A stretch of 64,000 nt of DNA from Paraglaciecola arctica BSs20135 (GTDB taxonomy: Bacteria; Pseudomonadota; Gammaproteobacteria; Enterobacterales; Alteromonadaceae): assembly GCF_000314995.1 (NCBI RefSeq), contig NZ_BAEO01000031.1, positions 124,001 to 188,000 of the forward strand, given 5' to 3'. Under the pieces are notes generated by a model. It was not told where the DNA came from and made no database searches. It saw only the letters and a list, made by a program, of their open reading frames with translations. The position numbers and the translations under genes are program-made. Position 1 is the stretch's first letter; each line of letters opens with the position of its first letter. Positions 7,818-28,685 of this stretch are shown piece by piece.

Positions 7818-10800
7818 TTATACTTTTGACGCTGTACTCTTTATTGATGACGAGCGCCATAAATAAAATAAGGCTGGTAACACAAGTAGCGTCAGAATGA
7901 CTGCACTCGACATCCCACCGACCATTGGCGCAGCAATACGACTCATGACCTCAGATCCAGTACCCGTACCGTACAAAATAGGTAATAAGCCAACAATAAT
8001 CGCTGCGGCTGTCATCATCACAGGGCGAACACGCATACCCGCGCCGTGTAAAACGGCCTGGAGTACATCTTCTTTTGTTGTCGAAACATTATTTAAATGG
8101 TGTTCGCTGAGCATTTCTTTGTAAGCTTGATTTAAATACACCAGCATGATGACGCCAATTTCTACAGCCACTCCTGCTAGCGCGATAAAACCCACTCCAA
8201 CCGCCACTGAGAAGTTGTAACCTTCTAAATACATCAACCATATGCTACCGACCATGGCTAGCGGCAAAGTACCCATAATCATCGCAACTTCAATCACGTT
8301 ACGAAAATTAAGATAAAGTAATATAACGATGATAAATAAGGTTAATGGCACAACGTAAGTCAGCTTAGCTTTTGCACGCTGCATGTATTCATATTGCCCA
8401 GCCCAAGAGATAGAGTAACCAGCGGGTAAATCTAATTTATCTGCCACCACTTTCTGTGCAGCTTCAACATAGGTCCCTACATCAACGCCGTCGATATCCA
8501 CGAATGCCCAACCATTTAGACGTGCATTTTCGGATTTAATACCCGGAGGTCCATCTTCTACGATGACATTAGCCACATCTCCTAATGAAATTCGTTGTCC
8601 ATTAGGCGTCACAATAGGCAGCAATGATAGCTGTTCAGGCGAATCACGATAATCTTGTGGATAACGTAAACTCACGGGATAGCGCTCTAAACCTTCAACT
8701 GTTTGAGTAACATTCATACCACCAATAGCGGTAGCTACAACTTGCTGTATTTCAGCGATATTTAATCCATAACGCGCCGCTTTTGCCCGTTGGATGTCCA
8801 CTTTTATGTATCGACCACCGGCAACACGCTCAGAGTAAACTGAGGATGTACCAGGAACGTCTGCTAAAATTTCTTCTATTTGTTTACCTATATCTTGTAT
8901 AACGTCTAGTTTAGGACCGGCAATTTTTATTCCTACAGGTGTCTTAATACCAGTTGCCAACATATCAATACGGGTTTTAATTGGCATTACCCAGGCGTTA
9001 GTTACCCCTGGAAGTTTGACTAATGCATCCAGTTCTTTTTTCAAGCTTTCTGTGGTTACTCCTTCTCGCCACTCATCATGAGGCTTTAACTGGATGAAGG
9101 TTTCTATCATGGTTAGAGGTGCTGGGTCGGTTGCTGTTTCAGCACGACCGACTTTACCAAACACGGTTTTTACTTCTGGAACTGTCTTAATCAACTTGTC
9201 CGTTTGTTGCAGAAGTTGGCGAGCCTGACCAATAGAAATACCGGGGTAAGTCGTGGGCATATACATCAAATCCCCCTCATCAAGGGGTGGAATGAACTCA
9301 CTGCCTATTTTATCCAGTGGATATATGCCAATGGCAAGCACTGCTAATGCAGCTACTATTGTCATTTTTGGGAAGCGTAAAACGGTTTTCAACGCTGGCA
9401 TATAAATAAAGGTTAAAAATCTATTTACCGGGTTTTTATGTTCAGGTAACACTTTACCTCGAATAAAATACCCCATTAGCACTGGCACTAAGGTAATGGC
9501 CAATGCAGCAGAAGCAGCCATGGCATAAGTTTTAGTAAATGCTAGCGGCGCAAACATTCGACCTTCTTGGGCTTCTAAAGTAAATACAGGAACAAAGCTC
9601 ACCGTAATAATTAATAAACTAAAGAATAATGCTGGGCCTACTTCACTCGCCGATTCTGTGACGATTTGCCATCGATTCTCATTCGTTAAGGGTGTTTTTT
9701 CCATATGCTTATGCATGTTTTCTATCATGACGATCGCACCATCTATCATCGCGCCAATAGCAATAGCAATACCTCCTAGCGACATGATATTGGCGTTAAG
9801 CCCCTGTAAATGCATAATTATAAAGGCAGTTAAAATACCTACTGGCAAACTAATAATCGCGACTAAAGATGAACGAACGTGGAATAAGAAAATGATGCAA
9901 ACTAAGGCTACCACACCAAACTCTTCCAGCAACTTATAGGCTAAGTTATCGACAGCCCGTTCAATCAAGGCAGAACGGTCATAAACAGGCACTATCTCTA
10001 CGCCTTCGGGCAGTCCTTTTTTAAGCTTTTCGAGTTTTTCTTTGACACTTTTAATCACTTGTTGAGCGTTTTCTCCAAAACGCATGACAACTATGCCACC
10101 AACTGTTTCTCCTTCGCCATTAAGCTCTGCAATGCCCCGACGCATCTGTGGGCCAGTGCCAATATCTGCCACATCCTTTAACAATAAAGGCGTACCATTT
10201 TCGTTGACTCCCAAAGGAATGTTTTCTAAATCATCGACACTTTTGATGTATCCCGTCGCTCTGACCATGTACTCAGCTTCGGCCATCTCAACTACTGATG
10301 CGCCTATTTCCTGATTACCTTGTTTAATGGCCATTTGAATGTGAGAAAGTGGAATACCAAACGCTCGTAATTTATCAGGGTCAACTCTTACCTGATATTG
10401 CTTGACCATACCGCCAAGGGCCGATACTTCTGAAACGCCAGGTACTGTTTGTAATTCAAACTTTAAAAACCAATCTTGTATACTGCGCAATTGACTTAAA
10501 TCATGTTGGCCAGTGGTATCTGTTAGGGCGTATAAGTATACCCAGCCAACACCGGTTGCATCCGGGCCTAATTGAGGACGTGCAGCAGAAGGTAGATTGG
10601 GAGCCACTTGACTTAAGTACTCAAGTACCCGTGAACGTGCCCAATAAAGGTCGGTATCTTCATCGAAAATAACGTAAACATAGGAGTCGCCAAAGAATGA
10701 GTAACCGCGTACGGTAACGGCACCTGGCACCGACAACATGGCAGTGGTCATTGGGTAAGTGACCTGATCCTCGACTACTTGTGGTGCTTGCCCAGGGTAG

Positions 10801-10958
10801 CTTGTTTTAATTATCACTTGTACATCTGATAAATCAGGAAGTGCGTCAATGGGTGTTCTGTTGACGGAGTATAATCCAACGCCAACCAATAAAAATGTCG
10901 CTAATAATACGAAAAATCGATTGCTAACAGACCAACGAATAATCGACGTAATCATCAT
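7818..10958 (-). CDS. cusA: CusA-type heavy-metal RND efflux pump (Cu/Ag)
   Basis: This 1046-residue protein is of normal length for the HME branch of RND transporters. It starts with a TM1 cap ([20 protein letters not shown]) and [15 protein letters not shown]. It has the TM4 segment with [20 protein letters not shown] and the HME-specific stretch [18 protein letters not shown], which in E. coli CusA lies in the periplasmic metal-binding cleft. The final TM bundle closes normally. It pumps Cu(I)/Ag(I) from periplasm or inner membrane into the CusBC tunnel, driven by protons. Its ATG shares one base with the cusB stop (TAATG), so translation is coupled. Co/Zn/Cd (CzcA) specificity is less likely. 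Confidence 0.93.
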
Positions 10959-12523
10959 TACTCTCCTTTGTCGCTAGCAGCATCTTTGATTGCAGGCTCT
11001 GTTTTTGGCATATCCATTGCCATCGCGCTGACAATAATAAAATTACCGTCTCTAATTTCAAAGGTGAACATCACATAAGCAGCATTTGAAAATAAGGCCA
11101 TATCAACATTTTCTTCAACAATAAAATCAACTCTGTCTGCCTCACGCCCCCACTTTAAGATGGCTTCTCGGTCGATGGTGACCATTCGATGATCAACCAT
11201 TGCCGACACCACAGTACCGTTCACTGTGGCTGAGGAAACACTATCGTTGTTCTCACTCATATCCATTTGTGTTGACTCATTTTGGGAAGAGTCATGATTC
11301 ATACGTTTAAAATCAGATGATTTGCTTGATTCTGAATCGAGTAAAAATTGCGCCGAACTGACGACTCTTTCTCCCTCGCTTAATCCTTGAAGTATTTCAA
11401 CGCTTTCGCTGTCATAACGACCCACAGAAACCTCAACAGATTTAAAGCTACCTTCACCTAGTGCCAACACAACTCTATCTTGATTACCTGTTCTAATGAG
11501 GGCCTCTTTTGGAATAAGTAGTGCTTGTTCATCACCTGTCGCATGAATGGCAATTTGTGCAAACATATTAGGTTTAAATTCCCCCTCTTCATTATCGAAG
11601 CGCAATCGTACTTTCACCGTACGTGTTTTAGCATCAAGGGTTGGGTAGATATAATCGACTTGACCTTCCCATGTTTTACCGGGTAAATAATCTAGTGTCA
11701 TAGTCACGGGCGTAGAAGTTTTAACTTGGCCGGCCTGTCTTTCGAATACTTCTGCCTCGACCCACACATCGGATAGATCACCAATAGCCATCAAGGTTGA
11801 GCCAGGTTTTACATAGAAGCCTTCGCGTATGTTAAGGTTTTCAACCACGCCATTTTGCGGGGAATAAAACGTAATGTTTTGCTGCACTTTTCTGGTTTTT
11901 TTGAGTTTTTCAATAGCCGACTTAGGTAACTGTAGTGCTGATAATCTATTTTCAGAAGCCGTTATTAATCGACTGTTTTTTCTATCTAACGCCAATAATA
12001 ACTCCTCTTGAGCATTAACTAACTCAGGGGAATAAATATCGTATAATGGCTGGTTTTTTACAACAGGATCACCGGTAGCCTTAACATAGAGCTTCTCGAT
12101 CCATCCTTGAACTCGAGGGTGAATATGCACAAGTTTATCTTCATTGTAAGTCACATAACCCACTGTGTTTATTTCAGTATGCAGTGATTTGAAACCTGCT
12201 GTTGTGGTACGTACCCCTAAGTTATTCACAACATCAGGTGAGATACGAATTGTACCGGGACCTTCATCAGGTCCTTTTCCGTCATCGTCATAAACAGCCA
12301 CTAAATCCATTCCCATTGGCGATTTACCCGGCTTGTCTCTCTTATAATTTGCATCCATGGGGGCGACCCAATAGATCGGCTTCTTTTCGTCAGTGGTTTT
12401 GCTGGTTATTGGATCACCTTCTGAAGGAGCGATAAAATAAGTTGCCGTAAAAGTGATAATGCCACCTAAGATCATGCCAATAACTATGGGGCTAATGTGT
12501 TTCTTTGAGATATTTGGGCTCAT
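10958..12523 (-). CDS. cusB: CusB-type periplasmic adaptor with a degenerate C-terminal CusF-like domain
   Basis: This 521-residue membrane-fusion protein has an N-terminal anchor (residues 12-31). A heavy-metal-binding segment follows ([20 protein letters not shown], then GMDLV, about residues 50-76), then the hairpin/lipoyl/beta-barrel core. A Met/Asn/Ser-rich linker and a final domain (about 430-500) read like Cus[21 protein letters not shown], then ILKWG. CusF binds Cu(I) with His36, Met47, Met49 and Trp44. Here the tryptophan is kept but both methionine positions appear to be non-ligands ([10 protein letters not shown] in place of WPEMTMRF). Its start overlaps the channel gene stop as ATGA. 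The metal-site loss is my hand alignment. Confidence 0.9.
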
Positions 12524-13980
12524 TGTTTTTCTCCCGAAATTGCAGCATATTGGTGGCTGTTAGGTAAATTCATATCATTTCTTGTAGTGACAGTATCGCG
12601 GCTGTCGATAAACAGATAATTAAGCTCTAGCCGTATTTTCTGCTCTTCTACGTTGAGTGTTAGTTCGTCTATTTCGGCATTTAACACCGCAATACGTGAA
12701 CGAACAACTTCTGAAAAATCGCCATCATCATTGGTATAGGCAGTCAAAGAGGCTTCTGCTTGGTCATATATTTGTGGTAATAATTTGGTTTTATATAAAT
12801 TCTGCCTGTCGATTAGGCGCAATAACCTGCCTTTTGCGCTCGAATAAGTACCTAACAATTGTCTAAGTAAGAGTAACTTTTCGGTTTTAACAGCTTCTGT
12901 TTCAGATATCGCTGATTGCACCTCTTTATCTTGTCTGTTTTCAGTAAAGAGTGGTAAATCAAAGGTCACACCAACCGAAAATAAATCAGCTCGACTTGCG
13001 CCCATAGGATCATCCCCGCGATAGCCATAACTTGCGTTTACAGCCCATTCAGGTTTGTATTTTTGCTTTGCCAATTTAATGCCTGCTTTAGAAGCCTTTA
13101 CTTTTTTTTCTATAGCGACAACCGAGGGATGATTTGAGAAATGTGAGACCAACTCTTCTGTCTTATGCCAATTTTCTTTGTAAACTAAATCACTATTAAG
13201 TAACTCTATTTGAGGTAGCACTTGGTTAAGAACGATATTATGTAAAATAAAATCAGACGCTAATGGTGCTGCATATTCAGCACTATTTTCATTAGAAAAC
13301 GTGGTTAGCCATTGTGCAAGCATGCCTTCATAGCTGTTTTTCTGTTGCTCTAGTTGATCTAATCTGTCTTCTAAACGTGTTAGCTCTAGCTGTGCTCGAA
13401 CAATATCTTGCTGTCGAGTTTTACCTAAAGCTGATGAATAGCTTGCCTCTGCTACATCTGCTAACTGTTCAAATAACGACCTGTTACTTTCAATTAATGC
13501 GATACTTTGCTGGACCCTATAAGTGTCCAACCATAAGCTTCCTACTGTAACGGCTACTTTTGATTCTCTGTCCTTTCGTTGATATGGGAATGCTTCACTT
13601 TGAGTTTTTAGCTGTTGGCTTTTAATATCTAAGGTATCGCCGCGAGGAAACATTTGTGTAATGCCTACTTTTGCCTGTGTCATGCCTTCCTGACCAAAAT
13701 CGAAACCGTTAGTGGGCAAGTTTGCCAGACCAATCGACACCTTAGGATCTGGTAATGTATTTACTGCAATACTCATCGATTCGATGGCTCTTTGTTTATG
13801 AACATTCCCAGTTAACCAAGGATCATTTATTTGGGCCGCCCTGATAGCCTTTTCGAAAGATAAAGGGGTATTGGCGTTCATCAATGGAAACTCAGTGGCA
13901 CTAGCAGATAAAAGAGTAAAAGCGAAAATCCCTACTCCGAATTTTATGTGGAATTTACGAATTTCATTGAGTTTATTCAT
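12520..13980 (-). CDS. CusC-like TolC-family outer-membrane channel
   Basis: This 486-residue protein has an N-terminal hydrophobic signal (FGVGIFAFTLLSASATEF). The rest is rich in long amphipathic helices with two internal repeats (LEDRLDQLEQQKNSYEGMLA; VLNAEIDELTLNVEEQKI), as in trimeric TolC-type exit ducts. The VSYG-like strand AVNASYGYRGDD fits an outer-membrane beta strand. No lipobox is apparent, unlike E. coli CusC. Position between the DUF411 gene and cusB, with TAATG and ATGA overlaps, makes it the outer-membrane part of the tripartite copper pump. Confidence 0.87.
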   Translation of the reverse strand: MNKLNEIRKFHIKFGVGIFAFTLLSASATEFPLMNANTPLSFEKAIRAAQINDPWLTGNVHKQRAIESMSIAVNTLPDPKVSIGLANLPTNGFDFGQEGMTQAKVGITQMFPRGDTLDIKSQQLKTQSEAFPYQRKDRESKVAVTVGSLWLDTYRVQQSIALIESNRSLFEQLADVAEASYSSALGKTRQQDIVRAQLELTRLEDRLDQLEQQKNSYEGMLAQWLTTFSNENSAEYAAPLASDFILHNIVLNQVLPQIELLNSDLVYKENWHKTEELVSHFSNHPSVVAIEKKVKASKAGIKLAKQKYKPEWAVNASYGYRGDDPMGASRADLFSVGVTFDLPLFTENRQDKEVQSAISETEAVKTEKLLLLRQLLGTYSSAKGRLLRLIDRQNLYKTKLLPQIYDQAEASLTAYTNDDGDFSEVVRSRIAVLNAEIDELTLNVEEQKIRLELNYLFIDSRDTVTTRNDMNLPNSHQYAAISGEKQ

Positions 13981-14507
13981 TAAAACTGTTCCTCATAAGT
14001 CATCACTTGCTTATATTCAGTCACAGTGCCGTCTGCATTAAGAAGTAAGATGTTGTAAGGCATGAATCGATCCCCAACCTCCATGCCAGGCGTTCCAACT
14101 GGCATGGCTGGTACAGAAAGACCGATTGACCCCTCTGGTACATTGGCTAAATACTGTTTAATAAATTTGGCAGGCACATGCCCTTCAAAAAGGTATCCAT
14201 CATTTGATTCAGCGGTATGGCAAGAACGATAGTTGGCAGGAATGCCTTTATTGTCTTTCAGCTTAGACAAAAGCGTAATGTTGTTTACTTCAGTCTCAAA
14301 GCCATGCTCCTCGACATGTGTTACCCACTTTTGACAGCATTTGCATGAACGACTTTTGTAAACCGTGAGTTCTATGGCCTCGTTCATTTTGGGTTCTTTA
14401 CCTGCTTTTGCATTCGCTTCTAATGTTGATGCATCAGAACAAGCAACCACAAACAAAACAGATAAGATGGACAGTGTTTTTACTGGAAATATATTTATTA
14501 ATTTCAT
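13980..14507 (-). CDS. DUF411 metal-binding lipoprotein
   Basis: The ATG start at 14507 is chosen (175 residues), preceded by AAAGAGAA. A GTG 36 nt upstream gives a longer form without a better ribosome site. The signal peptide ends in the lipobox VVACSD. The domain contains SRSCKCCQKW and YRSCHTAE, the conserved cysteines of DUF411 proteins, followed by GHVPA and VPAMPVGTPGMEVGD. DUF411 proteins recur in copper-resistance loci and are thought to bind Cu(I) in the periplasm. The stop shares one base with the channel gene start. Confidence 0.85.
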   Translation of the reverse strand: MKLINIFPVKTLSILSVLFVVACSDASTLEANAKAGKEPKMNEAIELTVYKSRSCKCCQKWVTHVEEHGFETEVNNITLLSKLKDNKGIPANYRSCHTAESNDGYLFEGHVPAKFIKQYLANVPEGSIGLSVPAMPVGTPGMEVGDRFMPYNILLLNADGTVTEYKQVMTYEEQF

Positions 14508-14606
14508 TTTAATATTCTCTTTCTTTTTGACATTGCGTAACACAAGGTCGAAACAAATCAGTTCCAGCTACTCTGGAAAGTCAAATTTCAAGCAGATCTA
14601 CCCTGC

Positions 14607-14969
14607 TTAAGAAAAAGTTGTTTTTGGGGGGCGTTGAGGGAGAGCTAAGAATATATTGTGTATAGTAGAATGACTCATAATCAATTGAGTTGTTTTGTAG
14701 TCAATTGGCGTATCAATATTGGGTTCACTAGGCACGGCAACAGTCATCAAACCCATTGGACAACAACAGTCTTTTTGACAGCAATCTTTATCAGAAGTCA
14801 TGCTAGATTTATCCATGGCCATGGAGTGTTTAGAATGATCCATATTTTTATCGTTCATCACCATTATGCCATTATCGGCGCACGGCATAAATGAAAGAGC
14901 AAAAGACTCCCCGATTTGCGCTGTGAGCATGATAAATATCATAATTATTTTGGTGATTTTGTATAACAC
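14607..14969 (-). CDS. Small exported Met/His/Cys-rich protein, first gene of the cus operon
   Basis: I start it at a GTG preceded by AAGG with 6 nt spacing (120 residues). An upstream GTG at 15065 would give 152 residues without a ribosome site. A hydrophobic N-terminus (IIMIFIMLTAQIGESFALS) is followed by a metal-ligand-rich part with DKNMDHSKHSMAMDKSSM and DCCQKDCCCPMG. The C-terminal 40 residues look like a membrane-distal tail. Proteins of this make-up head many copper-efflux operons in Alteromonadales and Shewanella. A copper sensor or chaperone role is inferred. It is the gene nearest the CopR-type box on the leftward side. Confidence 0.65.
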   Translation of the reverse strand: MLYKITKIIMIFIMLTAQIGESFALSFMPCADNGIMVMNDKNMDHSKHSMAMDKSSMTSDKDCCQKDCCCPMGLMTVAVPSEPNIDTPIDYKTTQLIMSHSTIHNIFLALPQRPPKTTFS

Positions 14970-15089
14970 TTGAAACCTTAAACTTAAAAAACCAAGTTCA
15001 CTAAAAAATGTGTACGTCTTAACTTGGAGAAGTGTTGAGTTAAAATACACTTTTATAATACTCACCTAACATGTCACGGCCATTACGCA

Positions 15090-17490: not shown

Positions 17491-18501
17491 TTATTTACCA
17501 TGTTGATGCCAAAGTACAGCCATTTTATCCATCAACGTCAACGATGCATTTTCCGTAAACTGCTGACCTTCCTCAATGTATCCCCTCACCGTTCCATCAC
17601 TCTTCCAACCACCCTGCTTTTTTATTAAGGCAAAATCTACCCTCTCTCTCGCCGCGGACGTTGACAATCCCCGACGAAAACTGTGACTACTCAGTTCTGG
17701 CACAAAATCAAACAGACATTTATCGCCTAAGTCTTTCAAAAAGCCATTAATGGCCCCGGGACTCAGCGACTTATCCTGAATCTGATCCCAGCGATTAACA
17801 GGCTTAAAGACCGCCCCTTGTGTGATACCCGCCCTATTCAGCCAATCCCTTAACGCTTTTACAGGACAGATGGATTCATTTCCATACGGTAGTGCGCGGG
17901 TCAATCCCGCAAGCTCTTGATCTGTTTTCGATTTAGGCAGGCTGATCAACACGCCTTCCTGCTCCCAAGATAAATCTTCAACGGTGATAGCGACCAATTC
18001 ACTGCGCCGAAACGCACCAAAAAAACCGACTAACAGCAACGCCCTGTCCCGCGCTTTCTTATTGCCGTCAGGTAAGGCGTGAAGGGTCGACAGCATGGAA
18101 ACGAGGTGCTCGAGACGCAAGGCTTTTGCTTTTGACTTGGGCTTGCCATGCGTACGCCGGATCCCATCCATCGTTTTACGAACCAACGGGGTACGAGACG
18201 GATCAGGTATGAGTTGTAGGTGATGCCACTGACTGATCGCAGTGAGATGCAATGCTAGGGTGCGCGGATTCAGCTGCCCTGCTCGCTCGATAAGGTAGCG
18301 TACCAACACACTTGAGTCGGTAGGTAAACGGCCACCCCATTTTTCGAATTGACGGATGGCACTACGATAGGCCTTACGGGTGTTATCAGACGTTCCCGCC
18401 GTGATGTAAAGTTGCAATGCAGTTTGACTGTTGTCCATCAACGAAGCTGTCTGCGTAGCTTCGTTCTTTAACGATGCGGACTCAGCTTGTTTAAGTTCCA
18501 C
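17491..18501 (-). CDS. Tyrosine recombinase / integrase
   Basis: This 336-residue protein has an N-terminal core-binding domain (residues 28-120) and a catalytic domain with the full set: Arg166 (GAFRRSELVA), His273 and Arg276 (SSHSFRRG), Trp299 (QGGWK) and Tyr308 (VRGYIE). It should be active. It is divergent from the KfrA-like gene, with a 36-bp inverted repeat in the shared region. DNA sampled around this pair is richer in G+C (about 50% in a 60-bp line at 18841) than the recombinase operon to the right (about 32% in a line at 25501), suggesting a separate origin. No phage structural genes are nearby. Confidence 0.9.
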   Translation of the reverse strand: MELKQAESASLKNEATQTASLMDNSQTALQLYITAGTSDNTRKAYRSAIRQFEKWGGRLPTDSSVLVRYLIERAGQLNPRTLALHLTAISQWHHLQLIPDPSRTPLVRKTMDGIRRTHGKPKSKAKALRLEHLVSMLSTLHALPDGNKKARDRALLLVGFFGAFRRSELVAITVEDLSWEQEGVLISLPKSKTDQELAGLTRALPYGNESICPVKALRDWLNRAGITQGAVFKPVNRWDQIQDKSLSPGAINGFLKDLGDKCLFDFVPELSSHSFRRGLSTSAARERVDFALIKKQGGWKSDGTVRGYIEEGQQFTENASLTLMDKMAVLWHQHGK

Positions 18502-18701: not shown

Positions 18702-19754
18702 GTGGCACGTGCAGGCGTCAACGCTAGTCATATTATTCAAGCCGCAGAATCTATTCAGGCCGACGGGCATACGCCCACAGTCGATCGCGTCAGGGACTAT
18801 CTCGGCACTGGCAGTAAAAGCACCATCGCGCCCCTGCTCAAACAATGGCGCGCATCCAACGAGTCCAAAAATGTGGACCATGGTTTGCCCGCTGATCTTA
18901 TGGACGTCGTGAAATCGTTGCATGCACGCGTGCACCAACATGCTGATGGTAAAATCGAACAGATCCAGGATGAGTGTAATAGCATTACAGATACGCTTAG
19001 CCAACGGCTAGCTGATGCATCCGCCCAAATCGCTCAATTGTCTGAGGACAATGCGACTATCAAACAGACGTTGCGGGACAGCCAGATTGAAAACAAGACA
19101 ATCACGCAGTCTCATCAGGTGCTGCTAAGTAGACATGATAAATCGGTGTATGAGCTGGAAGGAGCGCACACGAGGATTAACGAATTAAAGGCCGTTAACA
19201 CGGAGATTAAGCAGGAATCTAAAGACATCCGCGCCCACTTTGAGCACTATCAAGTGCGCACCGCACAAGATAGACAACATGAGCGTGAACAGTTTCAATC
19301 CACACAATTTCGTGACCAAGCACAGATCACATCATTGACCGAGCAAGTTCGAGATATCACCGCGCAACTTGCTACATGCGTGACCAAACAAACACAACTC
19401 GAGAAAAAATACGGGGAAATGAGGGATGACAATCAATCGTTGAGTCAGCGCCTGGCCGCAAAAAGTACGCAATGCTCAACCTTGCAACAGGATCTTATCG
19501 CCAAGAAACAAGACAACTCAGTGCTAATGCAGGAAATTGATACCCTGCAAGATCAGAAAGACGCGTTAACACTTCAATGTGTGGAGGCGGACAAAACACG
19601 GGGATTATTAACACAATCTCATGAGGGCATAGCGGCAGAGCTGGAAAAGATAAAAATCACTCACCACAATTTACAGAGCGAATATCAGCTTGCTCTGCAA
19701 GAAAAAGCACAACTGCAGGGACAGTATAAACAATTGGCGATGTCACTCCCCTAA
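18702..19754 (+). CDS. KfrA-like coiled-coil DNA-binding protein
   Basis: This 350-residue protein starts at a GTG preceded by AGGAG with 6 nt spacing. Residues 1-55 form the KfrA N-terminal helix-turn-helix region (ADGHTPTVDRVRDYLGTGSK, then STIAPLLKQW). The remaining 290 residues are a nearly continuous coiled coil (for example QDQKDALTLQCVEADKTRG). Plasmid KfrA is a nucleoid-associated, self-regulating protein that helps partition. Chromosomal copies beside an integrase are known in integrative elements, where the role may be to control or structure the element. Confidence 0.85.
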   Translation: MARAGVNASHIIQAAESIQADGHTPTVDRVRDYLGTGSKSTIAPLLKQWRASNESKNVDHGLPADLMDVVKSLHARVHQHADGKIEQIQDECNSITDTLSQRLADASAQIAQLSEDNATIKQTLRDSQIENKTITQSHQVLLSRHDKSVYELEGAHTRINELKAVNTEIKQESKDIRAHFEHYQVRTAQDRQHEREQFQSTQFRDQAQITSLTEQVRDITAQLATCVTKQTQLEKKYGEMRDDNQSLSQRLAAKSTQCSTLQQDLIAKKQDNSVLMQEIDTLQDQKDALTLQCVEADKTRGLLTQSHEGIAAELEKIKITHHNLQSEYQLALQEKAQLQGQYKQLAMSLP

Positions 19755-20000
19755 CCTACGCTGCGTAATAGACAACGTGATACGTGAAATCATACGTATT
19801 TCTAAAACGTGTTGGCAAATTTGACTCATGACGCACTGAAACCCGTCTTGTTAGTGTAAAGCCACACAGCGTTTCTGATAATTTGGGATGGATTGCGATA
19901 TCCTACATAAATATTAGTATTTTTCATGCCCTGATTATTGCATATTAACATCCAACCCGATCACCTAATATTGACTGATCGGTTTCATGTTATTACGCAA

Positions 20001-20434
20001 TTATCGCACGTTTTTAAGTCTGCTTGTTAACTTGACATGTGTTGCGATAGTGGTGAAACTGGATAAACGTTTTGCAACTAGGTCGCCCATACTATGTGCA
20101 ATAATATCCACTCTTTTGTCACCCACTCGCTGGTGTAATTCTTCTACTAAATTGGCGAGTACTTTGTCTTAGGCCTCTAAACTAAAACCCAATAGATAGT
20201 GAAATAATAATACTTGCCGTTGATTCAAAACCAAACTTTTAGTGACTAGCAGCCATGATTTTGGCGAGTCAGTAATAACGTGAACGAGTATTAATACACC
20301 CTTATCAGTTTGCCAAGGCACTAGTAAATAGAACCAAAACCTATTTCATTCGCAAGTCTTAAGGGTTCCCATAATCCAAGCTCAATTGCGTCCGGGCCAA
20401 AATATGGGATGTCATAATCAGCGATTTTACCAAC
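20001..20434 (-). pseudogene. Decayed alpha/beta-hydrolase (lipase-like) gene
   Basis: Read leftward across at least two frameshifts and a stop, segments spell a recognisable esterase: DYDIPYFGPDAIELGLWEPL, then EIGFG, then YLVPWQTDKGVLILVHVITD followed by SPKSW (oxyanion-hole strand). After that come FHYLLGFSLEA, a TAA, LANLVEELHQRVGDKR and VDIIAHSMGDLVAK (nucleophile elbow, normally HSMGGL). It lacks most of its C-terminal half and any good start. It lies between the two mobile modules and is clearly dead. Confidence 0.65.
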
Positions 20435-20700
20435 ATTTTTTACATTACCATCATTGTTATATTCCCTATATTACTTGGGTTTATGTAGATTTAGGATACA
20501 CAGGATAAGTTAGGAGATAATAATGTATACGTCTAGACATGGTAGGGGCGGTGAATCGATTCAGTTAAAATGAAATTTTTGCTTATTTTCAAAGAATAAT
20601 TCTTACAATGATTGTAAGTCTTTTATTATATTACTATTAAAAGTGTGGCTTTTTGATTGATATATATGAGTACAGTTTACTTTAAATATCCAAACTGCGT
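20435..20700. other. Non-coding stretch downstream of ginD
   Basis: This stretch holds a 17-bp palindrome CTTACAAT-G-ATTGTAAG (20602-20618), which may end the leftward gin transcript or be a binding site. It also has a 16-codon rightward micro-ORF (20523-20573) with an AGGAGA ribosome site. I see no other gene, tRNA or repeat here. Confidence 0.4.
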
Positions 20701-21213
20701 TCACAATCCCAGTTTTCGTTTAACATCAAGGGGCATATTACTTAATAAGCGTGCATATAATTTTTCGCAGTTTGACTGCTTTATCAATTTTAATTCTTCT
20801 GTTGAGCTTCTTGTTTTTGATTTAAGTTCTTCCTTGGATAAATGTTGAAGACCATGAGCTTTTCGTTCTAGCTTTTTATCTTTAGCCTTTGCCAGCTTTT
20901 CATTCACATCATCTAAGCAGCGTCTCAACTCAGATGAATATGAAGATGCATGAAATATTGACTGCGCAGTTTTATCAATTTTTTTGGCAACCTCAGCTTT
21001 ATTAATTTCATAATTTGATTTCTTGTTGTAATCAGTTTTCTTCCCATGCCCTTGTATAAAACGAAATTTTTCCTGTTTTAGCGTGTGTATCATTTTATAA
21101 GCTGGAAAAGATGCGTTACTTTTATCAACCCAGCTAGGCAAAACTTCCGAAGTCTCTATATAATCCTTCGTTATTTCGTCACCTAAAAATCTATTTAGAT
21201 AGTCATCAGCCAT
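20701..21213 (-). CDS. ginD: GinD-like small helper protein of the GInt recombination module
   Basis: This 170-residue basic protein follows three tyrosine-recombinase genes and overlaps the last by 8 bp. The centre has a helix-turn-helix-like stretch (NKAEVAKKIDKTAQSIFHAS) followed by a charged coiled coil (LDDVNEKLAKAKDKKLERKA). Its position and character match GinD of GInt islands and, more loosely, TnpC of Tn554, both small accessory proteins required alongside the recombinases. The family was assigned mainly from context. Confidence 0.65.
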   Translation of the reverse strand: MADDYLNRFLGDEITKDYIETSEVLPSWVDKSNASFPAYKMIHTLKQEKFRFIQGHGKKTDYNKKSNYEINKAEVAKKIDKTAQSIFHASSYSSELRRCLDDVNEKLAKAKDKKLERKAHGLQHLSKEELKSKTRSSTEELKLIKQSNCEKLYARLLSNMPLDVKRKLGL

Positions 21214-24019
21214 TTAAATGTCCTTCTTTATCGACGTCACTTATCACTCCTTCCAAGTGTGTAATAAAGTCATCATACGAACTGCTCTTTTCATTCACTT
21301 TGAGCTCTGCAATTCGTAACAATGCTTTTCGTAGCGTTGCAACATGAAATTCCTTTATTGATAAAGGTAAATTTGGGTTTTTACAGACTTCAACATCATT
21401 CTGTGTGTAAATGACAATACCAGCAAAGTTACTGTTAATAATATCTGCATTAATACAACCCAAACAAAGCTTAGGCGAAGCATTATGACGCTGTGGGATT
21501 CCATCAACAGAGCACTTCGCATGACTTTCAGTCCCCGCCCTTAATATGCAGGTTGCCCAAGCGTTGGATTTAATATCAATAACTCGCTCTTTTGCTATCT
21601 TGTTAGCAATAACAACGTATTCTTCATTTGTAACAACCTTCGTGAGATTCACCGCTTTTGACACAAAACGGTCAAAACCACCTGAATAGGATCTCCGCTC
21701 ATCTTTAAGGCTTGCTACGTGCTTTTGAACTACCGAGTTAATCGTCGTTCTTTTTGCTACATCATATATAGACTTTACCTCTTTATTTCGCAGGTAGGCC
21801 ATGAAAAACCGTTCATCTATATGCTTAAAATTTGCACGAATAAATCGGCCTACATCTCCTCTATAACGTTGCAGTATTGCCTCTGCCCAAATGTGTCGAA
21901 ACGCGTGCGGCGTTACTTTTAGGACATCATGGACAAATTCCTCTCTTATCCCCCTAACCGTTTCCGAACGGAAAACACTCTCATTGCCATTGTCATTGTC
22001 ATTGTCATTTGAAAAAATATGCGACTTCGTTTTCTCGCTGAGGCTTTCATTAAGTAAATTCGTACTTGTAGTATCTAGAGTACCTTGTTTATAACGCCTT
22101 AACGTTTCAGAAAATCTTGCGGTCGATCGGTTTTCCTTTTGATAACTACGTTTTGATAACTCTAATTTAGCAACACCATGTCGTAACTGATTGCGGAGTT
22201 TTATTACTTCCTGCGCGAGACTATTTTTGATATCGTACTTTTTATTAAGCCGCATGTACGATATCCGCTTGTCGGCAGATAGTGCACCTTTCACTGCATT
22301 CAAAGCTTCAAGTTCATCAAGTTCTTTAAACAATGCATATTCAAATGGAAATCGTAACCACATCTTTTCGACTCTAGTCGCTAAGTTATTTTTATTCGAA
22401 ATCGTTACTGAAATAAGTGCAGGATCTTCAGCTCCTGCACAGTTAAGCTGGCTAATCTGATTTGCAACCATTGCAGTTGATTGTGTAATTTCACGTCGTA
22501 GGGCTGTATCACCGCTGGTCTTCGATGCTGTCCAGTTCACATAAAAACGAAATGGGGTATATGATGAGTCGACAATATCTTTATTAATTTCAACTGAAAT
22601 TGCAGATAAAGGAAAGCCGAATTCGCTAGCGCGCCAGCCAGTATATGCTGCAAATAATGTTATACCAGCAGCTTCGACATCAGAGAGAAAAGCTTTTAAA
22701 CCGTTATTATTCTTTATTGAATTGTTTGAGGTAGAAAATTTTTTGCATAAGTCGCTAACTTCATTCTGTTCAATGGTGAAGCCCGCAATGTATTTATCAC
22801 AAACCTGATCAAATTCATCAAGCTGCCACTTGAAGGCACCATTTGCGAAATCGCTTGTAAGAATTACTGACTTATATTCTTCACAGATACTCTTCCTCGA
22901 TTTTATATCACCGTCAACAAATCGCGTATACAGCATTGCACGAATGAATTCGTGCGTATCGAGACGAAATTCCTTGACCCCTAAATCGGCTGCCACTGCA
23001 TTTAACACATCCAATGAATACGCTTTATTGTGAATCACACATTCATTGTACGCCTGCTGAAATACCGTTAATGCCTTGTTAAGTACCATTAACTCTAGTT
23101 CATAAACTTTTTCATGTTCTAACCGGCCATTTCTGTATTTTTTTGGTTGTTGTCCCAATTGCAGCATATTCGCGACGACTCTTATTAACCTACTTATCGT
23201 CCCAGATTTTAAACCACCTATTCCTTCAATATAGGTTTTCATTTGCTTTAGTGTCTTACTTACAGCCGTAGCAAAAGTAATATTTTGTTCAAAAAATTCA
23301 GCACAGTAATCTATGTAATGCCTACCAATATCAAGACCTAAAAAGTCAAACGAACCACCGGCCTTATAGTCAGTTAAGGTCATACCGGTCTGACTTAAAC
23401 AAGCTTCATTCAATGCCTTGTTTTGACTCGTTATGTCTATTTGGTTTAATAAAACTCTAACTCTATGACGAGTAAGTAATTTATAGATTGATCTAAGAGT
23501 GAACAATTTAATTCGACTTCCATAGGCTGGTATAGAAAATCGCTTTACAAAACGGTTATTATCAAAGTCGTGGGTTAATAATAGGGAAAAAAAGTCTGGT
23601 AATTGAGCCTCCGTCAGAACTATTAATTTTTCTACTTTTAAGTAATGAAACAACATTTTCAATAAATCTAACAACCACACACAACGATAATCGACTGATT
23701 GGTCTTGAACTAGCTCAAGAAAAAGCCACTTAGCAAAAACAACAGGCGATAACTCTATCGCTTGATCGGTTTCCCACAATACTTTAACTGTTTTAGCAAA
23801 TGCCAACTCACTTTGACAAAATGGCGCGAAATCAAGTACCACCTTACTATTTTTATATCGGTGGTGTGTAAATGAAACCTCCCATACTAAGTCATCTAAA
23901 TTTGTGTTTTCAACTTGGCTTATTTGCTGAAGTAATGTTAAACATCTATTCCTAAGCCCAGCTTCTTTTGGGCTAACTGAAAGTAATTCAGTAGATTGTT
24001 CACTGATATTAGTTACCAA
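21206..24019 (-). CDS. ginC: GinC-like large tyrosine recombinase
   Basis: I place the start at a TTG at 24019 preceded by GGGAGGG, giving about 937 residues and an 11-bp overlap with ginB. A TTG at 24043 gives 945. The N-terminal 400 residues are of unknown fold. The C-terminal half is a tyrosine-recombinase domain: box I Arg in FAAYTGWRASEFG, box II HAFRH, and a late FKHIDERFFMAYLRN segment with His and the likely nucleophile Tyr. The size is far beyond ordinary integrases and fits the third recombinase of GInt islands. Confidence 0.75.
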   Translation of the reverse strand: MVTNISEQSTELLSVSPKEAGLRNRCLTLLQQISQVENTNLDDLVWEVSFTHHRYKNSKVVLDFAPFCQSELAFAKTVKVLWETDQAIELSPVVFAKWLFLELVQDQSVDYRCVWLLDLLKMLFHYLKVEKLIVLTEAQLPDFFSLLLTHDFDNNRFVKRFSIPAYGSRIKLFTLRSIYKLLTRHRVRVLLNQIDITSQNKALNEACLSQTGMTLTDYKAGGSFDFLGLDIGRHYIDYCAEFFEQNITFATAVSKTLKQMKTYIEGIGGLKSGTISRLIRVVANMLQLGQQPKKYRNGRLEHEKVYELELMVLNKALTVFQQAYNECVIHNKAYSLDVLNAVAADLGVKEFRLDTHEFIRAMLYTRFVDGDIKSRKSICEEYKSVILTSDFANGAFKWQLDEFDQVCDKYIAGFTIEQNEVSDLCKKFSTSNNSIKNNNGLKAFLSDVEAAGITLFAAYTGWRASEFGFPLSAISVEINKDIVDSSYTPFRFYVNWTASKTSGDTALRREITQSTAMVANQISQLNCAGAEDPALISVTISNKNNLATRVEKMWLRFPFEYALFKELDELEALNAVKGALSADKRISYMRLNKKYDIKNSLAQEVIKLRNQLRHGVAKLELSKRSYQKENRSTARFSETLRRYKQGTLDTTSTNLLNESLSEKTKSHIFSNDNDNDNGNESVFRSETVRGIREEFVHDVLKVTPHAFRHIWAEAILQRYRGDVGRFIRANFKHIDERFFMAYLRNKEVKSIYDVAKRTTINSVVQKHVASLKDERRSYSGGFDRFVSKAVNLTKVVTNEEYVVIANKIAKERVIDIKSNAWATCILRAGTESHAKCSVDGIPQRHNASPKLCLGCINADIINSNFAGIVIYTQNDVEVCKNPNLPLSIKEFHVATLRKALLRIAELKVNEKSSSYDDFITHLEGVISDVDKEGHLNG

Positions 24020-26363
24020 CAGAATTCCCTCCCGTCTGAGCAAAAAACAATTGAGGAAGGTGTTCCTTATACTTCTTATACATTACTTCCCCTTGATTCA
24101 CAGTTTCACGGTTAAACAATCGAATTGAAAATACAGTTTCAATCCATTCAGCCGTAGGTAAAGCGGTATAAAACAAAAAATCTGGGTTACATTTTGCAAG
24201 TTGCTCATGCGTCCGGTGTAACTCGTCGAGATAATGTCTTAACTTCATCACTGTTTCAGGACTTTCAACTAAATACAGACTGTCCGGCAACTCCCCTTCA
24301 ATATGCCCATCAGCCTTACTAAAACCTAATTCATCAACCCTACCATTCTTTTTTTCCGTGATAATTTTCAGGCGAGATAATACATCGGATTTTCGTTGCT
24401 CAACGTACCGTAAAGCTTTCGTAAAATCACTTTGGAATAGGACCTTATCACCTTTAGACGGTCTAAATACGTTGCACTGCAAATCATGCATTACTGCTCT
24501 GGTAATACGCCCACAGTTGTTCAACCATACCTCATTCTCCTTATTTAAATAGTGATGTCGCTCTGTCTCCATAGTATGAGAACGGTAGTTCATTAATCTT
24601 GACGCATCAAAGTCGTCAGAAGCTGCATGCACGCTGGAATTCTTAATATTTTCCAAACCGAACAATCGCCCTTTACACGGAGTTTGACATTCCATCAACC
24701 AATCATCATGGCCGGACTTGGATTGCCGATTGAAAGCTTCTTTCTTTACACCATGATCAAGAACCCTATTCAAAGTATCTAAAAAAACTGGCGAACTATT
24801 TGATCTTTTAATTTCATTATCAATTTTTAGTCGAACTGTAGAGTACGATAAAAACCTAAAAAGTGTAGATGCTGAAGAAAAAGCACCTGTTTTTAACTTA
24901 GTGATTCCCGTATCACATACCAGTGCACCGCAATCCTGTGACATTTCAGCTGTTCTGTCATTAATAAACGCTAATATTGCATTACCAAGTTGGGAATTGG
25001 CGTTAATCATATTTGTACTGTGAACTGAGTTGGCTCTTGACTTAAAATATGCACAATCAATATGTGTGACTTTACCGTTTTGTTTCTTAAGGAATTTAAA
25101 ATTCGAACGCCTAAGTCGATAAATATCAGTTACAGCAACAGTTTGATAGGCCATTAAAACTGAAAACAAATAGTTCTCAGCTTTACATGTAGGCACAATG
25201 ACACTTTTAGCTTTAGCCCCTACATAGTCGACAAGTTCAAGGATAAATTCTATGGTAAATAATAGGCATTGTGGGGTTTGCTGCTTGAATACAGTTTCAA
25301 TTTTACCTTGTAAGGTTGTCTGTTGATTAATGTTGCCATTTTTTTCAATTCTATCCCTGACATAAGCAATAACATTTTTTGTACATTGAGAATATATTAA
25401 AGCATCTATTGCAACTCTAATTGAAAATGCTCTCTCATCAGACGTACAAGATAATATTTCAGCCAAGCGCTCAAAAAAAGTTCGTTTATAATTAAGTGTG
25501 TTCTTTTTATACTGGGCTATATCTTTTATATATTGAGGGTCTACTGATCCATTCGCATAAAGCGATGCATCCGGGTAAGAAGGGGGCATAGGAAAATAAT
25601 TACGTTTAACAGCTTTAACAATAAACAAATTTATCAATGAATGCTTAGCATTGTGCAACTCGATTAAGGCTGTAGCACAAGTAATTTGTAATGAATTAGT
25701 TAGCAACTTAGGCGACACAACTCGATTAAAAAGTTCACTCCCAACCCCAACTTCATCTAACCGTAGCCAGGAATGGAAACCAAACCATTCAGTTAAAGTG
25801 TTTTGTTCACTTTCATCTTTAGCTGCAAGTTTCGTTTTTGATAACTGATCTAAATACCGGTATTCGTCATTCGACAAATATTCAATACCAAAAGGTATGT
25901 ATGACAGCGCTTTATTTAATGCTGTGATTAATTCTCGCAATCCAGTACTCTGCGTTTTAACTTGATCATTTTTAACGCGAAATGTTTCAAATCCTTTTAA
26001 TATATTTCCTTTGTTGTTTGACGTTATATCAAGCTGATTGAGATACTCAACAAACCGTGGGAATATATCTGAAACCAAAGAGCGTAACGCATTGTCGGAA
26101 TTACAAACAAATGCCAAGTAATACGCGGTATACAGAGCTGAAAACACAAGCCTTTTTTCGTGACATGAATTATCCTTCAAGATAATAGTGCGAATAGCTC
26201 GGTTAAGACTAGCTGGTACAATAAAACGACGTGTTTCAGGTTTAAATTCGATAGGTACGACATCTATTCCTTTTCGGTACTCCGTCAGCATACCCTTCTC
26301 TTGTCTGATTAGATCCAACTCAGTCTGAGCACCATCACCACGATGGGAACGATCATTTTTCAC
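24009..26363 (-). CDS. ginB: GinB-like tyrosine recombinase, non-standard active site
   Basis: This 784-residue protein overlaps both ginA and ginC by 11 bp. The fold is recognisable mainly at the end: ENIKNSSVHAASDD followed by MNYRSHTMETERHHYLN, matching the box II and H...Y block of integrases. I find no HxxR pair. The box II arginine seems to be replaced by lysine in IKNSS, and box I is unclear (VAVTDIYRLRRSNFKF). It may be an accessory subunit of the three-recombinase complex rather than a full enzyme. Downstream of the catalytic region it carries another 140 residues. Confidence 0.7.
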   Translation of the reverse strand: MKNDRSHRGDGAQTELDLIRQEKGMLTEYRKGIDVVPIEFKPETRRFIVPASLNRAIRTIILKDNSCHEKRLVFSALYTAYYLAFVCNSDNALRSLVSDIFPRFVEYLNQLDITSNNKGNILKGFETFRVKNDQVKTQSTGLRELITALNKALSYIPFGIEYLSNDEYRYLDQLSKTKLAAKDESEQNTLTEWFGFHSWLRLDEVGVGSELFNRVVSPKLLTNSLQITCATALIELHNAKHSLINLFIVKAVKRNYFPMPPSYPDASLYANGSVDPQYIKDIAQYKKNTLNYKRTFFERLAEILSCTSDERAFSIRVAIDALIYSQCTKNVIAYVRDRIEKNGNINQQTTLQGKIETVFKQQTPQCLLFTIEFILELVDYVGAKAKSVIVPTCKAENYLFSVLMAYQTVAVTDIYRLRRSNFKFLKKQNGKVTHIDCAYFKSRANSVHSTNMINANSQLGNAILAFINDRTAEMSQDCGALVCDTGITKLKTGAFSSASTLFRFLSYSTVRLKIDNEIKRSNSSPVFLDTLNRVLDHGVKKEAFNRQSKSGHDDWLMECQTPCKGRLFGLENIKNSSVHAASDDFDASRLMNYRSHTMETERHHYLNKENEVWLNNCGRITRAVMHDLQCNVFRPSKGDKVLFQSDFTKALRYVEQRKSDVLSRLKIITEKKNGRVDELGFSKADGHIEGELPDSLYLVESPETVMKLRHYLDELHRTHEQLAKCNPDFLFYTALPTAEWIETVFSIRLFNRETVNQGEVMYKKYKEHLPQLFFAQTGGNSVGN

Positions 26364-27585
26364 GATGATTAAAATTATTTAATTCAATTTTCAGATGACA
26401 AGAGCGGATATATTCCTTGGTTGTTGCAGGGGCCCCTCTTCCATTTACCACATGCCCCAGTAGAGCTGCTGTAACCAAATACGGCTGGGACGTCGGTGTA
26501 ACATTGTCCACTCTCAATCCATTAATTAGTAGGGCATCATAGAATGTATCGGTACCAAAAGAATGCCTTAAAATATGATATGTTTGTTTTTCCTGTAACT
26601 GATCTAAATGGTCTGGTAATAACCCCTCTTTTTGTTTCAGAAGAATTTTCTTTCGCGCATGTTTAAATAGAACTTGCACACAAGCTGGCGATATAGCTTT
26701 TAAATAACCCGAACTCGGCTCTGTAACAAATAAGTTGTCAATATCACAATTAGGCCGTTCTTTGTCGTAATATTGCTTAAACCTGTGTAATGTATCTCGT
26801 GGGATATAAAGCTTCCTCGACTTACCTCCTGCTCCTCTGTGTCCTTTTGAGTACTTGCCCTGCAACCAAAACTCAAATTGTTCCTGTTCAGGACTCTGCT
26901 CTAACTGCTGAAATAACGACAACAGGCCCATATATTTCTTATTACCGACAACAAAGTCATTTAACAAAAATCCGATGTTTTCTTTTGCCCTAACGCCAGT
27001 TGTCCCAGCGGCACGCAAAATACACTCATCCCTTAGGCAACGAGCATTTGCATATAATTGTGCTCTCAATCCGGGAGAAAAATATTTAATGACGCCTCGA
27101 TGATTCGTATTTTCACGTGCAATGGCCTGTGAATCTTTCGTTATTTCTAAATTTTTTAATTCCGTAAAACCGTGGAATGCCAGAAAGTTATAATACGCCC
27201 TTAGTGCAATAAGCGCTTTTTTTGCCATTTCCAAACTTTTGCCTTTAATTTGGATTAGCACATTATTTAAGTAATGATTCAACAGCTCAGCAGGAAAATT
27301 ATGATGCTTATCGAAAGAGATTAGTTTCTTATCAAGACAATAAACCTCTGCCCACAGTAAAAAGTTTTTTAATTCGTTAATAATTTCACTAGTATTTTCT
27401 GAAATATTTATTTTTACCAGCTCAGCTCCTTTGATTCTTCGGTAACCATCATTCGTATAATTCAACTTATATATGGCTCTGTTATTAGCAAGTGCATGAC
27501 AGAAAATACATGGAAATATCAAAGGTATTCCCTCTTCGTTAGAAAAAAGCTTCGCATCAAAGCGTTTACTTTTGAACCAATACAC
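26353..27585 (-). CDS. ginA: GinA-like tyrosine recombinase
   Basis: This 410-residue protein starts at a GTG behind AGAAGGGG and is the first gene of the four-gene recombination operon. The catalytic residues are complete: Arg in TTGVRAKENIGFLL, HILRHS (HxxRH), LLGH, and Tyr in TTKEYIRSCH. An N-terminal Cys pair (FPCIFCHAL) is unusual for integrases. Its start is about 95 bp from the point where sequence homologous to a dGTPase gene begins, so it sits at the very end of the element. RIT elements also have three recombinases, but those are all about 320-420 residues, unlike this set. Confidence 0.78.
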   Translation of the reverse strand: MYWFKSKRFDAKLFSNEEGIPLIFPCIFCHALANNRAIYKLNYTNDGYRRIKGAELVKINISENTSEIINELKNFLLWAEVYCLDKKLISFDKHHNFPAELLNHYLNNVLIQIKGKSLEMAKKALIALRAYYNFLAFHGFTELKNLEITKDSQAIARENTNHRGVIKYFSPGLRAQLYANARCLRDECILRAAGTTGVRAKENIGFLLNDFVVGNKKYMGLLSLFQQLEQSPEQEQFEFWLQGKYSKGHRGAGGKSRKLYIPRDTLHRFKQYYDKERPNCDIDNLFVTEPSSGYLKAISPACVQVLFKHARKKILLKQKEGLLPDHLDQLQEKQTYHILRHSFGTDTFYDALLINGLRVDNVTPTSQPYLVTAALLGHVVNGRGAPATTKEYIRSCHLKIELNNFNHREK

Positions 27586-27677
27586 AAATATAACCCCTTC
27601 TAAAAGATACTTGACAATAGCACAATGATCTTAAAACAACATACGTTTTTACATATTAAGGTGGGTGTGTATTTTCT

Positions 27678-28685
27678 TACGGTCATGGTGGCGAGGTAGC
27701 ACTGCATTATATGATGCGCAATCATGGTGGATTCGAAGGCAATGGCCAAACCTTTAGAATAGTTACTAAACTCGAACCTTATACCGCCGAACATGGTATG
27801 AACCTTAGCAGGCGCACCTTGTTAGGTTTAATCAAATACCCTAACTATCTGCCGCAACTTAATCAGCCGCCACAAGGTCAAGAGTCAGTGCCTCACAGAG
27901 AAGTTAAAGCATCCCTTTGGCATCCACCTAAAGGGTTATATGAGTGTGATCAAGCTTCTTTTGAATGGTTACTTGAAGGCTTTTCTAGCCAAGACACTCA
28001 GCGATTTATGCAATTTAACAGCAATGGCAAAAACCATTACAAAACCCTATATAAATCTTTTGACTGTTCTATTATGGAGCTGGCCGATGATATTGCTTAC
28101 GCTATCCATGATCTCGAAGATGCCATTGTTATGGGTATAGTCAATCAGTCACAATTTAATCAAGAAGTGGCAGATCCGCTACTTAAATTAGACATTGATT
28201 GGATGAACCAAAACATAGTGGCACTCAGTGAAAAACTATTTAGCCAACACCATCATGAACGTAAAGACGCCATTGGTGCTTTGGTTAATTGTTTTATTAC
28301 TAATATTGAAATAATCGAAATTGCAGCAGAGTTTGAAGATGATTTATTAAAATACAATGCAGTTTTCCCTGCTCACTTCCATCAGGCACTGGGTATATTT
28401 AAGGCTTATGTTTTTAATCGGGTGATCAGAAAACCAGAGATACAAATGCTCGAGTACAAAGGCCAACAAATAGTCATGGAATTATTTCAGGCTTTTGCAT
28501 CCGATCCTCAACGATTATTACCTGACAACACCTGTCAACGTTGGTTAGAAGCTAATGATGCAGGTAACGGTCATAGAGTGATTGCCGATTATATATCGGG
28601 TATGACAGATGGTTTTGCTTCTAAATTGTATGGCAGTTTATTTCTTCCTTCCTCAGGCATTGTTGGAGAAAAAATCGGTTCATAA
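27678..28685 (+). pseudogene. dGTPase-like gene (dgt type), 3' two-thirds only
   Basis: From the GHGGEVALHYMMRNHGGFEG block onward, the frame follows the dNTP triphosphohydrolase family for about 334 codons, including the ADDIAYAIHDLEDAI metal segment, to a normal stop. Everything before the PPFGHGGE motif is missing, including the HD metal ligands. The frame runs only 18 nt further upstream before a TAA. Family members are about 440-450 residues, so roughly 115-120 codons were lost. The break coincides with the end of the ginABCD operon, so the gene was split by that island. The product cannot be active. Confidence 0.82.

Follow-up and report, generated by a model that had tools for sequence, protein, structure and literature searches.

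In a 64,000-nucleotide stretch of the Paraglaciecola arctica BSs20135 genome (the window in what follows; contig NZ_BAEO01000031.1, positions 124,001 to 188,000, or C42:124001-188000 of genome G000 in our own numbering), an operon of four overlapping genes, tyrosine recombinases among their products, stands directly beside a piece of dgt, a dNTP triphosphohydrolase gene. What broke this gene, how far does the element reach, and to which kind of mobile element does it belong? We consider it probable that a 72,213-bp site-specific mobile island sits in the HPP/YG codons of the native dgt, that its operon represents a third family, colinear with those of the SE and GInt elements and more SE-like than GInt-like in anatomy, and that its recombination is SE-like.

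A split dgt gene bounds a 72-kb island

A sequence-only reading of the window had placed an abrupt switch to the middle of dgt, at its GHGGE motif, about 95 bp beyond the start of the first recombinase gene, and had predicted the break at 27675-27680. The switch is indeed there: dgt homology begins at 27676, 90 bp beyond the start codon of gene 1, and the C-terminal part of dgt (27711-28685, plus strand, counted from the first ATG past the break) matches NF003701 from model position 116 of 426 with an E-value of 1.5e-129. This model, which describes an anti-phage dGTPase subfamily, is the best one for the dgt side of the break. The first 115-120 codons had been thought gone; the gene is split as claimed, but the count is slightly high (about 105-107) and the codons are not lost, as they lie at C42:79141-79462. 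When the genome was queried with a 106-residue N-terminal piece of a relative’s Dgt, a single place was found, C42:79141-79458, on the same contig and strand as the C-terminal part, which runs from C42:151676 on, with 72.2 kb between the halves. Beyond this one N-half and one C-half, the genome yielded no second dgt at the E limit applied.

Both junctions carry the same 6 bp, CTTACG, covering the dgt codons for P-Y-G: at C42:79457-79462 on the left (...GGACATCCTC CTTACG CAATAAATCACG...) and at window 27676-27681 on the right (...GTGTGTATTTT CTTACG GTCATGGTGGC). The distance from spacer to spacer is 72,213 bp, and when a script joins the two flanks, dgt reads as an open frame of 441 codons. Because CTTACG stands at both junctions and the joined flanks leave dgt open, window 1-27675 is read as the right-hand 27.7 kb of one 72.2-kb island, extending leftward beyond the window to C42:79463 (window coordinate -44537), and 27682 onward as chromosome. 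As such, the earlier claims that one island end is marked here to within a few bases, and that dgt is the target, both hold. The comparison with island-free relatives that had been proposed points the same way, as in 17 of the 21 same-genus genomes searched dgt runs unbroken for 441 codons or more. The other four have an internal TGA (G020), a short frame near a contig start (G012), a broken gene (G009), or, in P. algarum (G003), a dgt that is itself split and adjoins a related operon. Neither an unsplit dgt starting at GHGGE nor the operon beside a complete dgt was seen among these 21 genomes.

Related operons at the same dgt codons

Scanning genome contigs with an alignment of gene 3 yielded 42 loci, and a check with hidden Markov models (HMMs) found the complete four-gene order at 39 of them. 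At 36 of these every gene is a full single frame; L096 and L097 are broken, and L100 is cut by its own end. Of the remaining three, L063 is cut by a contig end, L103 is a fragment, and L104 has matches to genes 1 and 3 alone. The dgt gene adjoins five of the 42 loci, at GHGGE: L064, L065 in P. algarum, L066 in Alteromonas KUL106, L067 in Vibrio salinus and L068 in Thalassotalea algicola. Five further elements, one in the same genus and four elsewhere, thus sit at the dgt codons of the window element. In the four named genomes, all that were searched, the N-half of dgt is a separate frame of 127-150 codons; in three it shares the contig of the operon, which puts the elements at about 17 kb in KUL106, 24 kb in V. 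salinus and 49 kb in T. algicola (sizes by subtraction), and P. algarum has its halves on two different contigs. For L064 the attL end alone is known, and five elements, that of the window included, are known at both ends. A tree of gene 3 with 42 rows groups all six dgt elements in one clade (100/100) in which the window element branches first, and none of 500 label shuffles scored as low.

These relatives bear on whether the dgt halves were parted by ordinary rearrangement or misassembly, with the operon merely near. The window genome is known from one assembly of 72 contigs, and the separate contigs of P. algarum could be read in that way. However, the same break codon and similar element ends recur in five strains, three of them besides the window on single contigs, and with the dgt operons falling into one clade we regard this explanation as extremely improbable.

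Ends and spacers

Abutting the spacer at the end near gene 1, the intA-like gene (27676-27681, attL), lies a terminal motif C (27656-27675, minus strand; inward reading AAAATACACACCCACCTTAA), whose core, (A)C(A/G)CCCA, is common to the other dgt elements; written as (C/T/G)(A/G)CCCA, a core occurs in all six some 69-84 bp ahead of gene 1. Motif C is present in a single copy within the island at up to 4 mismatches in 20, and in a search upstream of gene 1 at 39 loci the core was found at five dgt loci and at one of 34 others (L098, in an unlike context). At the far ends (C’), GAA.AAAACACC is found in P. algarum, T. algicola and KUL106, with looser forms in V. salinus and the window element. Compared inward end to end, the five dgt elements match at 6-8 of 12 bases, best in register 0 (p 0.04 by column permutation over these five related elements), which is suggestive of a C/C’ inverted repeat; those of SEs are imperfect and measure 13-19 bp.

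A dgt-like 6-bp spacer is present at both ends in all five elements, the other four included. The two copies are identical in the window element (CTTACG, 6 bp exact), P. algarum (CCTTCG; read from the junctions, the repeat there has 9 bp) and T. algicola (CCTTTG). They are unequal in KUL106 (CCTTCG at the intA end, CTTTCG at the far end) and V. salinus (CATACG and CTTTTG, respectively). For SEs, it is described that host bases are kept at the intA end and donor bases placed at the far end (PMC9345347, PMC10214605), and the unequal spacers of KUL106 and V. salinus are as predicted if 6 bp are carried over in this way. A survey of Vibrio dgt (61 genomes searched, loci made for 30, 29 looked at, 28 dgt genes) showed a Tyr codon in the spacer of 24 genes and a Phe codon in four. 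V. salinus has the Tyr codon at its intA end and the Phe codon at its far end, which fits the SE rule; this one element lends an SE-style direction of spacer transfer weak support.

Could the operon and the far end be two elements accreted at dgt, so that no single mobile unit spans the 72 kb? Inside the island lie an ordinary Phage_integrase protein (17491-18501, minus strand; PF00589, E 5.2e-16) and a KfrA_N protein (18702-19754, plus strand; PF11740, E 8.7e-24), and the cargo looks layered, with two czc-like sets, mer and cus as named by eye. Against this, the 72 kb holds no second C, C’ or spacer-plus-end at up to 4 mismatches in 18-20, bar one 4-mismatch match, its far end is C’-like, and the same YfbR gene stands at the edge of three of the five dgt elements. 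We therefore think accretion quite unlikely, and a single island the better account.

The four-gene operon

The four overlapping open reading frames (ORFs) that had been noted, of 410, 784, about 937 and 170 residues, were confirmed at 27585-20701 on the minus strand, neighbours overlapping by 8-35 bp. None of their products has a Pfam match, and NCBIfam recognizes a tyrosine recombinase in gene 1 alone (NF040815, E 1.4e-11, below its cut-off). Gene 1 (26353-27585) encodes an IntA-like tyrosine recombinase of 410 residues with R199, K247, H337, R340, H378 and Y392, and these six positions are occupied accordingly in 41, 41, 38, 40, 40 and 40 of 41 aligned members. Gene 3 (21206-24019; an alternative TTG start at 24043 gives 945 residues) encodes a large IntB-like tyrosine recombinase of 937 residues with R463, K500, H705, R708, H733 and Y742, all six present in 42 of 42 members, as are four C-terminal cysteines (C824, C836, C852 and C855).

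Between them, gene 2 (24009-26363) encodes a 784-residue, Tfp-like protein with a putative recombinase-type fold (AlphaFold model, pLDDT 82). Both catalytic arginines are missing in all 42 members: the box-I position, a correspondence drawn by eye, holds S, T, N, E or Y, with an invariant D (D413) next to it, and K574 takes the place of the box-II arginine throughout, with no box-II histidine. K441, H596 and Y605 are retained. Foldseek ranks Cre and FLP first for this model, at E 0.9-1.3, with no significant match. Gene 4 (20701-21213) encodes a Srap-like helper of 170 residues, predicted to be all-helical (pLDDT 85), whose fold search gave 16 PDB matches, none at E 0.001. Judging from the aligned residues, the catalytic set is intact in proteins 1 and 3, and protein 2 is degenerate.

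Comparison with the SE and GInt families

The sequence-only reading had taken the operon for the ginABCD set of a GInt, a label that was not borne out and that we now consider very unlikely to be right. Recombinase-like first genes in a four-gene operon at one end, site-specific insertion, and a large cargo behind gene 4 with defence-like and metal-resistance genes, the latter known in GInt cargo (PMC5385486), would all suit a GInt, and gene 1 is clearly homologous, its profile matching GinA at 96.6%. However, the resemblance is one of gene number and layout only: proteins 2-4 have no BLAST or HMM link to GinB, GinC and GinD and do not share their sequences. By tblastn against 72,556 plasmids, genes 2 and 3 found the same three records, all with the family’s own operon (gene 1 added two weak matches, E 0.05 and 0.1), whereas a real GinC as query gave 93 matches, and gene 3 matches GinC at 1.5% versus 80.8% for SE IntB. 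Protein 2 lacks GInt-type catalytic arginines at both aligned positions in 42 of 42 members, the box-I arginine among them, while the G.RPIQ pattern is found in three of five GinB. Furthermore, proteins 2 and 3 measure 784 and 937 residues, where the GInt of E. coli has 512 and 677. The repeat, an exact 6 bp in the window element and 9 bp in P. algarum, may also differ from the imperfect 10-17 nt described for GInts (PMC5385486). GInt identity as it had been stated is thus refuted by the unlinked proteins 2-4, the missing arginines and the sizes.

Is the element then a true SE, a distant member of the described family? It shows the SE operon layout of intA (RHRY), tfp (no RHRY), a long intB (RHRY) and srap, that is, overlapping genes for an ordinary recombinase, a degenerate recombinase fold, a long RHRY recombinase and a small helper. 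It also shares the 6-bp spacer, the few selected targets and the marine gammaproteobacterial hosts; SE-6283 is described to carry bcp, a copy of its target gene (PMC9345347), as four elements here carry dgt. In addition, within the host family four frames of 670-720 codons with short gene-3 profile matches are candidate SE IntB. In hhalign profile comparisons (L103 and L104, the duplicates L065, L087 and L092, and frames under 380, 640, 850 and 150 residues left out), the SE counterpart was nearer than that of GInts at each of the four positions when seen from the window family: 97.9 versus 96.6 for A, 80.8 versus 1.5 for C, 15.0 versus 0.7 for D and 0.6 versus 0.2 for B, where B alone is no evidence. 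Yet proteins 2-4 have no BLAST or HMM link to SEs, their Tfp and Srap sequences fall outside the SE clusters, and proteins 2 and 3 are longer (680-784 and 895-937 residues in seven members versus 567-682 and 620-720 in six SEs). The inverted end motifs are weak in the window family, SEs stand nearer to GInts than to it at three of the four positions, and the four invariant C-terminal cysteines of protein 3 may be a further difference. We judge membership of the described SE family to be unlikely. The notion of the window family as a sister group of the SEs was likewise dropped, as the SE-side profile comparison does not bear it out.

Two other kinds of element were considered. Gamma-mobile-trio elements are multi-recombinase islands with defence cargo, for which NCBIfam presumably holds models; seven protein-3 members match no model so named at E 1, and this identity is unsupported. 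Tn554-type and RIT elements likewise have several recombinase genes in a row, as tabulated in PMC10214605, but have three genes rather than four and are set apart by their description there; with RIT recombinases given as 315-410 residues, all with the catalytic tyrosine (PMC10214605), an RIT is rejected here by sizes and residues.

A third family colinear with both is the reading we prefer. No such family was seen in the titles and abstract openings of the literature covered, most subscription journals and preprints lying outside that coverage; dgt as a target of such elements was not found there either, and is absent from the main text of PMC10214605 and PMC5385486. Following the printed work on SEs and GInts, the likely mechanism is a four-protein recombination over the 6-bp spacer, in which strand nicking and exchange, at core sites 6 bp apart, would fall to proteins 1 and 3, while protein 2, being degenerate, would hold the sites or the complex, and protein 4 would help. 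A circle would form and then enter dgt of a new host, with six host bases possibly remaining at the intA end and six bases of the former host put at the far end, as V. salinus weakly suggests. SEs appear to leave their site by copying and not by excision, and with some GInts, too, no empty site is left. With some 40 members, several natural targets, and five elements whose ends and spacers are known exactly, a third colinear family offers a comparative set that bears on the roles of protein 2 and the helper, and on how general the 6-bp donor footprint is.

Several points weigh against this reading. Seen from the other side, SE IntA, Tfp and IntB are nearer to GInt A, B and C (98.5, 34.2, 90.3) than to the window family (98.2, 4.6, 84.4), and Srap is the one SE protein to favour the window family (71.0 versus 1.3 for GInt). 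The best GInt match of protein 3 is the catalytic part of GinA (50.2), and with HMMs built for proteins 2-4 of SEs and GInts no window-family member is reported below 0.05. As inverted repeats, C and C’ are marginal, with 6 of 12 bases matching in the window element and the p of 0.04 given above. Spacers identical in three of five elements are mute on direction, and KUL106 does not decide it, as its two spacers are carried by four and three of 29 Alteromonas genes (59 genomes searched), leaving native and donor undecided. At 72 kb the island exceeds the largest SE, described at 58.5 kb (PMC10214605), and circle, movement and strand bias are put forward by analogy with SEs and GInts.

A side observation concerns the GInts themselves. 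In the five examined (L106, L115, L117-L119), GinC retains box-I R, H..R and Y, its alignment partner among SE proteins is IntB (90-92%), and protein 2 is without the first box-II histidine. GinC is paired with Tfp in PMC10214605, a correspondence that may need a second look; the printed argument that protein 3 is degenerate in GInts was not used, as these five keep its catalytic residues.

Cargo and possible replacement of the target gene

From the far end, the island holds YfbR, WYL and defence-like genes, metal resistance, the ordinary integrase with KfrA, and the operon, so that 72 kb of metal-resistance and defence-like genes can be bounded as one such unit. YfbR, a 5’-deoxynucleotidase, lies just inside the far end (C42:79621-80253; NF003009, 226 bits versus a cut-off of 122), and past it come a WYL-match protein, a CARF6 match and an AbiH match, with an ATPase and a phosphoesterase that match defence models weakly. 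Among the metal-resistance genes CzcA and MerA were named by NCBIfam and the others by eye; the latter include a CusA/CzcA-like RND pump (7818-10958) with neighbouring partner genes (7818-15065, minus strand), of which only a sister pump at C42:92605-95745 was scanned.

P. algarum and KUL106 share this far-edge YfbR (68-69% identity), which is not found in V. salinus or T. algicola. Directly behind gene 4, P. algarum, T. algicola, V. salinus and L064 carry a 492-residue Dgt of another subfamily, the other three being 69-80% identical to the P. algarum copy, and L063 has a 92-residue piece of it. Among the five dgt elements delimited on both sides, two thus have Dgt only, two YfbR only (the window element being one), and one has both. 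A blastp search for a target copy behind gene 4 at 39 loci found one in four, all dgt; L098 showed a short 75-residue repeat in that search. No cargo Dgt was found in the window genome, and the roughly 950 bp behind gene 4 (19755-20700) contain no ORF of at least 80 residues and no match to the cargo Dgt protein.

It may be that the cargo Dgt or YfbR stands in for the broken dgt function. More broadly, and tentatively, one could picture a third family, thin in marine Gammaproteobacteria, whose clades target conserved coding stretches (dgt, dinB, dimeric dUTPase, comM-like and others), and whose dgt clade carries a stand-in deoxynucleotide hydrolase at the island edge, so that the host would survive loss of the target and come to depend on the island; this seems to us possible rather than probable. 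As members of one clade, the dgt elements may owe their Dgt and YfbR cargo to common descent and not to independent gains. Islands that break an anti-phage-type dGTPase gene while bringing deoxynucleotide hydrolases provide a testable case of target-gene replacement.

The native order in G010 (L191) is an alaA-like gene, named by eye, then yfbR and dgt. In the window genome a yfbR stands behind an alaA-like gene at C42:67356-67955, 54% identical to the island YfbR (the natives of the genus are at 38-40%), and the N-half of dgt lies 11 kb beyond it rather than adjacent. In G006 (C1:2457194-2476958) the native yfbR is seemingly split, its two partial matches lying about 19 kb from each other, and a further yfbR at the edge is 55% identical to that of the island; this locus is perhaps another island with target replacement beside dgt.

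The wider family

Within the host family, 17 of 196 genomes match the gene-3 profile at 1e-10, the window genome included. In 13 the match runs over most of the profile; in the other four it spans about 180-230 positions and falls in a frame of 672-717 codons, possibly an SE IntB. Among 229 genomes drawn across the class, the window genome alone matched the profile.

A second operon of the family is present in the window genome (C46:143686-149775; L040:5686-11775), near nqr/apbE-like genes as named by eye; with gene 1 cut to 231 residues, it is likely a dead element. In Pseudoalteromonas atlantica, L104:3424-9186 is an operon of SE-like sizes (369, 739 and 622 residues) whose genes 1 and 3 match the window-family models (5.8e-20 and 2.4e-9), gene 1 also matching SE and GInt models; it is a possible bridge between the window family and SE/GInt. 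Members at other targets have cargo of their own behind gene 4. L041:737-5432, L087 and L090 abut dinB, confirmed by Pfam for L087, and carry QatABCD-like genes (by eye). L072 (3922-4452 and 11211-11819), and likewise L073 and L076, abut a dimeric dUTPase gene near its C-terminus and carry a NUDIX protein directly behind gene 4 (Pfam was run for L072), a theme shared with Dgt and YfbR in the dgt elements. At L084, a full-length DinB stands directly behind gene 4 (10890-11972, by Pfam), with no dinB frame on the intA side.

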